Positions 3,740 through 14,687 of a stretch of DNA of 21,548 nt are shown here, piece by piece (the stretch's first letter is position 1; each line of letters opens with the position of its first letter). The notes under the pieces are model-generated. The model was not told the DNA's origin. It did no database searches and was given only the letters and a program-made list of their open reading frames with translations. The position numbers were made by a program, and so were the translations under genes. This DNA is from Chloroflexota bacterium (GTDB lineage: Bacteria > Chloroflexota > Anaerolineae > B4-G1), in assembly GCA_024232355.1 (NCBI GenBank), contig JAAEPW010000777.1:1-21548 (forward strand), written 5' to 3'.

Positions 3740-4030
3740 ATGACTGATTTGAAAGAAACGCATGAAAATGAAACAGAATCAGTAGATGGCGACGAAAAGG
3801 TCGTGGAAATAACAACGCCTATTGTGGTCAACCTCGGCAAACAACGTCCCAAAAGAATAAAGGCCCTCAAACGTGGCCGAGGTAAATTGATGGATCAAGT
3901 TGGTGATGTGCTGGACCAAGTGCAAATGAGCCTGGGCGATGAGGCGGAAGGCAAAACACTCGTACCCGTCATTTTGCTATACGAGAGGAAAAAGAAACGC
4001 AAACAAAGGTTCAGGATGTTTCGTTTTTAA
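3740..4030 (+). CDS. Small basic protein, DUF6200-like (first gene of operon)
   Basis: A 96-residue protein with an acidic N-terminus (residues 1-23), a core PIVVNLGKQRPKRIKALKRG (about 27-46), a segment GKLMDQVGDVLDQV, and a very basic tail ERKKKRKQRFRMFRF. No signal peptide or membrane helix is evident. The core resembles, from memory, short proteins catalogued as DUF6200, whose function is unknown. The basic tail suggests binding to nucleic acid, acidic lipid or an acidic partner protein; this is inference. It is preceded by AAGGAG at 3727-3732 with a 7-base spacer. It shares the pattern P[VI][VI]...ERKKK(K)RK with the next gene, which suggests a related pair. It is first in the operon and closest to the strong promoter, so it may be made in excess. 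Confidence 0.75.
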   Translation: MTDLKETHENETESVDGDEKVVEITTPIVVNLGKQRPKRIKALKRGRGKLMDQVGDVLDQVQMSLGDEAEGKTLVPVILLYERKKKRKQRFRMFRF

Positions 4031-4103
4031 TGGCTTTGGCCAGGTATGACAACAGACACCGAAAATCGACACCTTTTTAACGCTTGACACAGGAGGTCAA
4101 AAT

Positions 4104-12286: not shown

Positions 12287-14687
12287 TTTGCGAACCAAAA
12301 AAGTACTGCGCGATGTGTGGAACAACAAATCCCGCGTCATATTGGTGGTTATATCTATTGCTATGGGACTTTTTGCCACAAGCTCTGTTTTTCGGTCTCG
12401 AGAAATACTAGCCCGTGAATTAAACACCGGCTTTATGGCTATCAACCCGGCCAGCGCAACGCTGTTAACGCACTCGGTTGATGATGATTCTCTCGAGACC
12501 ATTGATAAAATGGATAGTGTGCAGGCAGTCCAAGGCCAGCACATCGTTTGGGCCAGAATCAAGGTTGGAGCAGAGTGGCGATCGCTTAAATTGGTTGCCG
12601 TCTCTAATTATGACGACATTCCGGTTGATAAAATCGTACCGGTTGAGGGAGAATGGCCGCCTCCCGAACAAACCCTTTTGTTAGAACGATCTTCACTGGC
12701 GGCCGCCCAAACACAAATAGGTCAACCCGTATTGATAGAAACACCCGACGGGTATCTGCGCGAGATGCCCATAGTAGGTTTGGTGCATGATCTTACGGTG
12801 TCTTCGGGAAAGCTGGTCGACCAAATACTTTTTGGCTATATCAGTCTGGAGACGCTTGACTGGTTTGGACTGTCTAGAGATTACAACGAAATAGATATTC
12901 TAGTTACCGGCGATATATTTAACAAGGATCATATCAGGGAGGTATCCACACAAGCCAAGGATACCCTAGAGCAAGAAGGACAGATGGTTTTGGGCACGCA
13001 AATTCTTGAACCCGGCAAACACCAAATGGATAGCATTATCCAAACGTTATTGCTAATTATGGGAATCTTGGGGATACTCTCGCTAATTTTGAGCAGTTTG
13101 TTGGCATTTAATACGATATCGGCAATATTGGCCCGACAAGTTCCGCAAATTGGCATGATGAAAGCTATTGGCGCGCCCAAACGTGACATTTTGGCTATGA
13201 ATATGGCAACCATTTTTATTTTTGGTCTGCTGGCTCTGTTTGTTTCAATCCCGCTGGGTATGGTAGCGTCCCGGATACTTGTCGCCCAACTGGCCGATCT
13301 CTTTAATTTTGACATTAAAAGTTTCAGTGTGAGTTACCAGACAGTGATTTTAGAAATTCTACTAGGCTTGATGGTTCCTACTGTGGCCGCGTTGCAGCCA
13401 ATTGTCAGAGGTATGCAGATTACGGTACGTGAGGCTATTGCCAATCAGAAAGGGGGTCAATTTGGAGCAAACGTTATCGACAAATTGGTAGCCCGTTTAC
13501 GGGGATTACCGGCAACAATGCTCTATGCTATTCGAAACATTTTTAGACAAAAAACTCGACTGGTGCTGGCCCTGGTTACACTGTCTATGGGTGGAGCTGT
13601 TTTGATAACCGTTCTCAGCATTCGGGCCTCGCTGCTGTTAACCGTTGACGATATAGCATCTTACTGGCAACAAGACCTGTCGGTTGATTTGCAGTATCCT
13701 TATCGAACAGCCAAGATAAATCGACTGTTGTCAAAAGTATCTGATATTGACCAAATTGAAGGCTGGAACATAAAATCGGGTTTTCGGGTACGCCCCGACG
13801 GACAGGAATCAAATGAACAGATCACAATTTTTGGGGTTTCGGTTCCCAGTCACTTTATCGCACCTACCCTAACTCAAGGACGTTGGCTAAGACCACAAGA
13901 TGAAACTGCCATTGTAATCAATCTGGATGTGTTTGCAAAAGAGAGCGACATTCAGCTTGGCGATTGGATTACGCTCAAAATTGACGGACGTGAATCAGAA
14001 TGGCAAGTGATAGGTTTCAGCGTTACCCAGGTGGTCGGCTTTGGCGAACCCAAGCCCGACAATCCCATAGCCTATGCCAATTACGACTATTTTAGCCAGG
14101 TGATCGGCGAGGTAGGACGAGCAAATAGAATAGCCATTGAAACCCAAGATCACGATGCGTCTTTTCAGGTTGTAATGAAACAAAGGTTGGAAGAACACTT
14201 TGATGCTGCCGGCGTACGAGTACGTACCATAGAAACCAACGAAAAAACATATTTGCAACTGGTTAATTTAACCGTTCCAATTCTTGCGTTGCTGGCGTTT
14301 ATGGCTGTTTTGTTTGCCGTGGTTGGTGGTCTGGCGTTAACGGGCACAATGAGCCTGAACGTGCTTGAACGCACCCAAGAGATCGGCATTATGCGGGCCG
14401 TGGGTGCTGCGGGTAATATTGTCATGCAAGTTGTAATTATCGAGGGCATCTTTGTAGGACTAGTGAGCTGGATTTTGGCCAGCTTATTGGCCTACCCACT
14501 AAGCTGGGGCATGAACATTTTTATAGGCATAACGAGTTTTTATAAAGTCCCATTTACCTTTGCATTTGCCCCTATCGGTATTTTGCTGTGGTTAATTATT
14601 GTCCTTATCCTGTCTGTCTTGGCCAGCTATATTCCGGCTCGTAACGCCTCAAGCTTGAGTGTGCGTAAAGTGTTGGCGTACGAGTAG
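12279..14687 (+). CDS. FtsX-like (MacB/LolC type) ABC permease
   Basis: An 802-residue membrane protein with duplicated FtsX architecture. Hydrophobic segments lie at about 20-38, 252-280, 307-335, 355-375, 427-450, 662-690, 717-740 and 765-790, with two large extracytoplasmic domains (about 40-250 and 450-660). Each half has the cytoplasmic coupling text after its helix: ARQVPQIGMMKAIGAPK and ERTQEIGIMRAVGAAG. The end IPARNASSLSVRKVLAYE is typical. Such permeases work with LolD/MacB-like ATPases in moving lipids, lipoproteins, peptides or antibiotics, usually by a mechanical rather than channel mechanism. An upstream in-frame ATG at 12219 exists, but I prefer 12279 because ATGATTAA links it to the ATPase stop and it starts just before the first helix. 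It is the last gene of the operon. Confidence 0.92.
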   Translation: MINLRTKKVLRDVWNNKSRVILVVISIAMGLFATSSVFRSREILARELNTGFMAINPASATLLTHSVDDDSLETIDKMDSVQAVQGQHIVWARIKVGAEWRSLKLVAVSNYDDIPVDKIVPVEGEWPPPEQTLLLERSSLAAAQTQIGQPVLIETPDGYLREMPIVGLVHDLTVSSGKLVDQILFGYISLETLDWFGLSRDYNEIDILVTGDIFNKDHIREVSTQAKDTLEQEGQMVLGTQILEPGKHQMDSIIQTLLLIMGILGILSLILSSLLAFNTISAILARQVPQIGMMKAIGAPKRDILAMNMATIFIFGLLALFVSIPLGMVASRILVAQLADLFNFDIKSFSVSYQTVILEILLGLMVPTVAALQPIVRGMQITVREAIANQKGGQFGANVIDKLVARLRGLPATMLYAIRNIFRQKTRLVLALVTLSMGGAVLITVLSIRASLLLTVDDIASYWQQDLSVDLQYPYRTAKINRLLSKVSDIDQIEGWNIKSGFRVRPDGQESNEQITIFGVSVPSHFIAPTLTQGRWLRPQDETAIVINLDVFAKESDIQLGDWITLKIDGRESEWQVIGFSVTQVVGFGEPKPDNPIAYANYDYFSQVIGEVGRANRIAIETQDHDASFQVVMKQRLEEHFDAAGVRVRTIETNEKTYLQLVNLTVPILALLAFMAVLFAVVGGLALTGTMSLNVLERTQEIGIMRAVGAAGNIVMQVVIIEGIFVGLVSWILASLLAYPLSWGMNIFIGITSFYKVPFTFAFAPIGILLWLIIVLILSVLASYIPARNASSLSVRKVLAYE

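Follow-up and report, generated by a model that had tools for sequence, protein, structure and literature searches.

The operon at positions 3740–14687 of a 21,548-nucleotide stretch of DNA from a Chloroflexota bacterium (contig JAAEPW010000777.1; the whole stretch is hereafter called the window) is probably a biosynthetic operon based on acyl groups carried by an acyl carrier protein (ACP), and three of its genes, which encode a UbiB-family kinase and two small proteins (Pfam DUF6200 and DUF6312), are repeatedly found together in five phyla beside differing biosynthetic machines. Of our findings, this module of three genes has the wider bearing. In the window two accessory gene sets, the module and that of DUF1702, occur together, a combination observed at no other locus examined, and the ketosynthase that usually accompanies either was not detected. 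The operon consists of nine open frames, g1 to g9, all on the plus strand and as tightly packed as the initial annotation had described, with gaps from g1 to g9 of 73, 3, 4, 9, −28, 12, 35 and −8 bases. Gene content, motifs, linkage and the recurrence of the three genes are direct observations.

The evidence for the module comes from 21 loci with DUF6200 other than the window, 19 of them from genome samples and two on plasmids, across five phyla. Genome samples contained DUF6200 in 1 of 385 genomes (class of a Rhizobium metagenome-assembled genome), 10 of 193 (phylum of Citreicoccus), 2 of 203 (class of Methylotuvimicrobium), 1 of 251 (phylum of Herpetosiphon), 1 of 149 (phylum of Ca. Sulfopaludibacter) and 3 of 149 (phylum of Aquisphaera), and a further 127 genomes drawn from a single myxobacterial order yielded the ten already found. 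With profiles that were built partly from these same loci, DUF6312 was identified in the same stretch at 20 of the 21 loci, the sole miss being L115 on a 5.5-kb contig, and UbiB, within the stretch or the cluster, at 15, counting Azospirillum, in which it shares the cluster, and L108, where the contig ends in a UbiB fragment; UbiB was missing at L105, L115, L117, L118, L119 and L154. The suggestion that the kinase and the two small basic proteins act together was strengthened by this joint recurrence. In 19 regions of 20 kb each, taken from other parts of 11 of these genomes, there was one ketosynthase match and none for the six other profiles, and since that one match is on the contig of L117, it perhaps belongs to the same cluster as L117. 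The single Chloroflexota genome with DUF6200 (among 251) has it on a 5.5-kb contig without detected DUF6312 or UbiB. DUF6312 was found in none of 301 Chloroflexota genomes, a weak result because the window's own copy scores only 30.3 bits against a cut-off of 27. Loci in Crinalium, Croceicoccus and Phenylobacterium were set aside, as they have single distant members only and no shared operon.

The genes beside the module fall into several types. A ketosynthase is present at 12 of the 21 loci (L087, L100–L104, L116–L119, L156 and, in the wider stretch L147, Methylosinus). In Methylosinus trichosporium OB3b, tblastn placed the module, as UbiB followed by two hypothetical genes that are DUF6312 and DUF6200, within a large polyketide cluster that also contains HMG-CoA synthase, PfaD, FabD and phosphopantetheinyl transferase (PPTase) genes. 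In Azospirillum argentinense Az39 the DUF6200/DUF6312 pair is at one end of a large polyketide cluster and UbiB lies ~75 kb from it, separated by large synthase genes; this UbiB, on plasmid NZ_CP007796.1 (L143/L146), directly adjoins a gene of the HMG-CoA synthase family (92153–95242). The synthase at L104, a locus designated Myxococcota type A, has formyl-transferase, methyltransferase, AMP-binding, ACP, ketosynthase and dehydratase domains and is adjoined by a FabD-like gene. L117 has a synthase with integral acyltransferase domains, L119 has ketosynthase and nonribosomal peptide synthetase (NRPS) condensation domains, and L118 has an RND/HlyD pair and a gene of the PapA type that shares 27% identity with g4. 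The clusters of Methylosinus (pOB3b1), Azospirillum (AbAZ39_p3), Myxococcota type A and Acidobacteriota L116, which from their gene content are probably of the trans-acyltransferase (trans-AT) type, share UbiB, DUF6200 and DUF6312 with the window, and type A also has the window's order of DUF6200, DUF6312 and UbiB. They differ from it in their ketosynthase megaenzymes and FabD-type acyltransferases and, on the two plasmids, in their HMG-CoA-synthase-type genes, none of which was detected in the window.

Four further loci, all from Myxococcota (L106, L107, L109 and L110), resemble the window more closely in that they have an AMP ligase and an ACP in addition to UbiB, DUF6200 and DUF6312, with no ketosynthase match in 20 kb. 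Their UbiB proteins are 36–40% identical to g3, and in a tree of 20 UbiB sequences, the root of which is arbitrary and in which the Azospirillum branch is long, they form one group with g3 (support 100/100). Separate groups were obtained for type A (with Acidobacteriota), two alphaproteobacterial and seven other plasmid-borne UbiBs, the last being divided from g3 by a 100/99 branch; the tree does not show the module-linked UbiBs as a single clade. The four operons differ from the window in their gene order, which is ACP, UbiB, DUF6200 and DUF6312. Pfam identified a reductase-hydrolase-AurF fusion of 997 residues at L106 and an ornithine/DAP-decarboxylase-like protein at L107, and L109 has frames of similar size where L106 and L107 have these genes. 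No paper describing the four operons was found.

The second accessory set was examined at 79 loci with DUF1702, taken from the best 80 of 381 confirmed stretches in a genome scan. These included matches for PKSE at 63 loci, E4 (CRTAC1-like) at 54 and E5 at 50, and a ketosynthase profile match within the flank at 62; several of the 17 loci without one end at a contig edge. Their DUF1702 proteins are 35–50% identical to g7, and the window differs from such enediyne-type polyketide synthase (PKS) cassettes (DUF1702, E4, E5 and PKSE) in having no ketosynthase match and no identified CRTAC1-like gene. None of the 79 loci matched the DUF6200, DUF6312, ACP or PapA profiles, one matched UbiB (at the edge of L038) and one the AMP ligase (L052). 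Similarly, tblastn against the 79 loci and one plasmid locus identified, besides DUF1702, only generic ABC genes (nine loci) and one weak ligase match, and no match to DUF1702 or FtsX was found in the 29 stretches that cover the 21 DUF6200 loci. The conserved linkage of all nine genes, for which the initial annotation had proposed a search, therefore fails in the genomes examined. It had also held that a ketosynthase or NRPS partner always present just outside would refute its reading; the counts given above for both gene sets go half way towards that, but the window and the four operons with the closest UbiBs have no such match. Four to six copies of DUF1702 were observed at L012, L015, L032, L037, L042, L053, L058 and L063–L066 (Herpetosiphon, Ktedonobacterales and actinomycetes), and most of these multi-copy loci have a weak PKSE match (27–29%), unlike the single-copy enediyne-type loci.

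Within the operon, the module is encoded by the first three genes. The product of g1 (3740–4030) is a basic DUF6200 protein of 96 residues (PF19702, 57 bits against a cut-off of 26.9; pI 9.6), and that of g2 (4104–4487) is a very basic DUF6312 protein of 127 residues (PF19831; pI 11.2). The two had been annotated simply as small basic proteins. Besides themselves, g1 has nine homologues, 35–82% identical, and g2 has eleven, and the nearest of these are on contigs of 3,175 bases or less where a length is given. The third gene, g3 (4491–6551, 686 residues), encodes a member of the UbiB/ABC1 family of atypical kinases/ATPases, based on its domain (PF03109, 8.5e-52, 176 bits against 22.9) and its motifs. 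Members of this family have KxGQ, an A-rich loop, an invariant lysine, ExD, HxDxHxxN and DFG, and in g3 we identified KLGQ at 172, ASI at 234, VAVKV at 250, ELDF at 302, HADPHPAN at 399 and DFG at 419. It aligns with the solved chains 7cy2 and 5yjz and with COQ8A, and has two hydrophobic segments close to its C terminus. It does not score as the UbiB orthologue of ubiquinone biosynthesis (215 bits against the TIGR01982 cut-off of 487.55).

The acyl-handling genes follow. A free-standing condensation/PapA-type acyltransferase of 434 residues is encoded by g4 (6556–7860, GTG start), which scores above the cut-offs of PF00668 (49.5 bits), PF16911 (47.6 bits) and PF07247 and has HHTIIDG at 131; its nearest solved chain is 8s6l, a phthiocerol/phthiodiolone dimycocerosyl transferase (2.8e-17). 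The ACP, g5 (7870–8142, 90 residues), has a PP-binding domain (PF00550, 29 bits against 20.8) with its attachment-site serine in ESI, the usual motif being DSL. The acyl-AMP ligase, g6 (8115–9713, 532 residues; PF00501, 3.1e-82), overlaps g5 by exactly the 28 bases first noted (8115–8142). Its annotation as similar to fatty acyl-AMP ligases (FAALs) stood in part: its best solved chains are FAALs (3kxw and the 7r7e–7r7g set, 6.4e-62 to 4.8e-61), but it is without the ~21–23 residues found after YGLAE in the aligned FAAL chains, a gap that we take to be the place of the FAAL insertion. We designate g6 a putative FAAL-like acyl-AMP ligase, FAALs being its nearest relatives among solved structures. 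The published account gives FAALs a specific insertion in the N-terminal domain, a FAAL-specific helix and a closed coenzyme A pocket (PMC8460268).

The last three genes encode a DUF1702 protein and an exporter. The DUF1702 protein, g7 (9726–10646, 306 residues; PF08012, 6.9e-93), is predicted to be all-helical, and its model (pLDDT 89.5, pTM 0.90) gave no convincing match among solved structures. The products of g8 (10682–12286, 534 residues), a LolD/MacB-type ABC ATPase (PF00005, 1.4e-33) with two C-terminal cyclic-nucleotide (cNMP)-binding domains (PF00027, 4.1e-46, two stretches), and g9 (12279–14687, 802 residues), a MacB/LolE/FtsX-type permease with nine hydrophobic segments (PF02687, 2.8e-22, two stretches), together have the composition of a MacB/LolCDE-type ABC exporter, to which the cNMP fusion is an addition. 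The permease resembles the MacB chains 5lil and 5gko, and LolE. The best NCBIfam match of g8 was LolD (215 bits, cut-off 307.75), and the MacB model gave 194 bits, also below its cut-off; g8 was therefore assigned to the group and not as an orthologue of either. More generally, as no listed NCBIfam match reaches its curated cut-off, g1–g9 are family members without a named function. With these limits, Pfam and the motifs agree with the original assignments of the UbiB-like kinase, HHxxxDG acyltransferase, ACP, DUF1702 protein and ABC/FtsX exporter.

A ketosynthase profile built from the synthases of two relatives gave no match at E ≤ 1 within the 21.5-kb window. In that span the operon is distinguished from a polyketide cluster, trans-AT clusters included, by the absence of a ketosynthase in the cluster, and from an enediyne PKS cassette in that DUF1702 is present and the PKSE ketosynthase is not. 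The family assignments do support the original view that acyl activation, a carrier, acyl transfer and export are combined in one operon. The reading that we favour, with belief and doubt in even balance, is that helper genes of polyketide pathways here serve a specialised operon for the transfer and export of an acyl-lipid or acylated small molecule without chain extension. Judging by family membership, g6 would adenylate a fatty or related acid and load the acyl group onto the ACP, from which g4 would move it to a hydroxyl or amine of some acceptor. The DUF1702 protein may carry out some step, perhaps on the acyl chain, although this is a guess. The g8–g9 pair would export the product, the cNMP-binding domains being a likely switch. 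The UbiB, DUF6200 and DUF6312 proteins would be a membrane-associated helper module that derives from the accessory genes of polyketide clusters; its probable task, again as a guess, is the ATP-dependent extraction or presentation of a hydrophobic intermediate or product. For these three proteins, lipid handling and regulation are both possible. The closest parallel for the enzymes is in mycobacterial PapA5-type pathways, in which loading by a FAAL is followed by chain extension by a PKS and then by transfer. The window has the FAAL-like ligase and the PapA-kind HHxxxDG acyltransferase of such pathways, but no extending PKS was detected in it.

Several findings weigh against this reading. The ketosynthase search covered the window only, and a distant synthase elsewhere in the genome is possible. 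The full nine-gene set was not found elsewhere, at either the 79 DUF1702 or the 21 DUF6200 loci. The four Myxococcota operons share specifically the module alone with the window, their ligase being ~25% identical to g6, and in place of the window's PapA-type transferase, DUF1702 protein and ABC/FtsX exporter are the decarboxylase-like gene (L107) and the AurF fusion (L106). Three of the 21 loci (L105, L108 and L115) are on short or ending contigs and are not classifiable. Two others have neither a ketosynthase nor an AMP ligase with an ACP: L154, where DUF6200 and DUF6312 occur with a PPTase-like gene and no ketosynthase match was found in 35 kb, and L155 (Planctomycetota, G1245, 1–9500), where two UbiBs, DUF6312 and DUF6200 are beside an exporter in which a pair of cNMP-binding domains is combined with a peptidase C39 domain, and no ketosynthase or AMP-ligase match was found across the 65-kb contig. 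Given what these two loci contain, the module is not confined to ACP chemistry. HlyD-like and PpiC-type genes also adjoin at L155. A cNMP-fused ABC protein is common to L155 and the window, and the C39 type differs.

The alternative that fares best, although we consider it rather unlikely, is that a larger polyketide or NRPS pathway, with its synthase elsewhere in the genome, uses this operon for starter loading, tailoring and export. The frequency of ketosynthases beside both the module and DUF1702 is consistent with this, as is Azospirillum, where the distance between UbiB and the DUF pair in one cluster indicates that parts of a pathway can lie far apart. However, an acyltransferase and an exporter are encoded in the operon itself, its flanks contain regulators and other genes and no synthase, and the four operons with the closest UbiBs manage with a ligase and an ACP and no ketosynthase match in 20 kb. 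It is less probable still that the operon belongs to an envelope-lipid pathway, in which a resident membrane lipid or lipoprotein would be acylated and moved within the envelope by the LolCDE/MacB-like pair, as part of cell-wall physiology and not of a secreted compound. Such a role would suit the closeness of g8 to the LolD and MacB models and of g9 to MacB and LolE chains, and also the resemblance of g4 to a mycobacterial PapA5-type enzyme that builds envelope lipids; the g8 scores are below both cut-offs, however, and the rarity of DUF6200 in Chloroflexota (1 of 251 genomes) argues against a core envelope function.

We give little credence to the possibility that UbiB and the small proteins are regulators of the pathway, acting as a kinase signalling pair, and not lipid handlers. 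In its favour, the strong basicity of the small proteins might allow them to bind nucleic acid. Against it, two hydrophobic segments lie close to the C terminus of g3, no TnmR1-type transcription factor was identified within the operon, and UbiB relatives in yeast are reported to regulate the cellular distribution of coenzyme Q (PMC8346625), which links them to lipids. In the tiancimycin study, deletion of a UbiB-family gene in the cluster lowered the titre ~fivefold; the authors interpreted this as a regulatory effect and described the function as not validated (PMC9464397). Elsewhere, the main text of the sesbanimide paper names no UbiB (PMC8262917), that of a paper on trans-AT evolution has neither UbiB nor AarF (PMC7930024), no paper naming DUF6312 or DUF6200 was found, DUF1702 gave one, and among the matches listed for UbiB/AarF with polyketides none describes the module. 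A chance juxtaposition of the nine genes was rejected on their tight packing and the recurrence of the module.

Purine-rich stretches precede the starts of g1, g2 and the ligase, those of g1 and g2 being ribosome-binding-like, and the permease g9, which overlaps g8 by 8 bases in the only overlap other than that of g5 and g6, most likely starts at the ATG at 12279 and not at the TTG at 12219 of the program-made frame. A promoter-like site (3632–3660, plus strand; TTGTCA-17-TATAAT, 11 of 12 matches, with TG before the second hexamer), which is a consensus match only, ends 80 bases before g1 and is the best-scoring of the scanned stretch; as 21 sites were counted in the scan and shuffled sequence gave 13.6 on average (sd 3.6), single promoter-like sites are weak evidence. 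Before the operon, on the minus strand, is a large LuxR/MalT-like regulator (481–3228, by eye). After it are a 134-residue open frame without a Pfam or NCBIfam match (15278–15682); a short-chain dehydrogenase/3-oxoacyl reductase-like frame on the operon strand (15971–16729, by eye), which might belong to the pathway; a sensor kinase on the minus strand (16935–19379), which was compared with Chloroflexota genomes only and had matches in 151 of 201 of them, the best 54% identical, so that a Chloroflexota origin of the window is likely; a response regulator, also on the minus strand (19868–20614, by eye); and the start of a frame resembling the N terminus of a cobalamin-binding radical SAM protein (21083–21457, by eye), with an early stop near the end of the window.

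A wider proposal, which we put forward tentatively and with more doubt than confidence, is that UbiB, DUF6200 and DUF6312 form a portable, membrane-bound, ATP-driven mover of hydrophobic natural-product intermediates or products, which would serve trans-AT and cis-AT synthases, PKS/NRPS hybrids, synthase-free operons with an AMP ligase and an ACP and, perhaps, peptide exporters such as that of L155. The window would then use the module without a synthase, would have acquired DUF1702 from the enediyne set, and would make a class of acyl compound for which the literature searched gave no pathway. As there is no large synthase in the way, the window is a compact test case. If the module handles hydrophobic products, it marks biosynthetic operons that would be missed by ketosynthase-based mining, and it would offer a bacterial, genetically accessible system for the function of the UbiB family, which is debated for COQ8.

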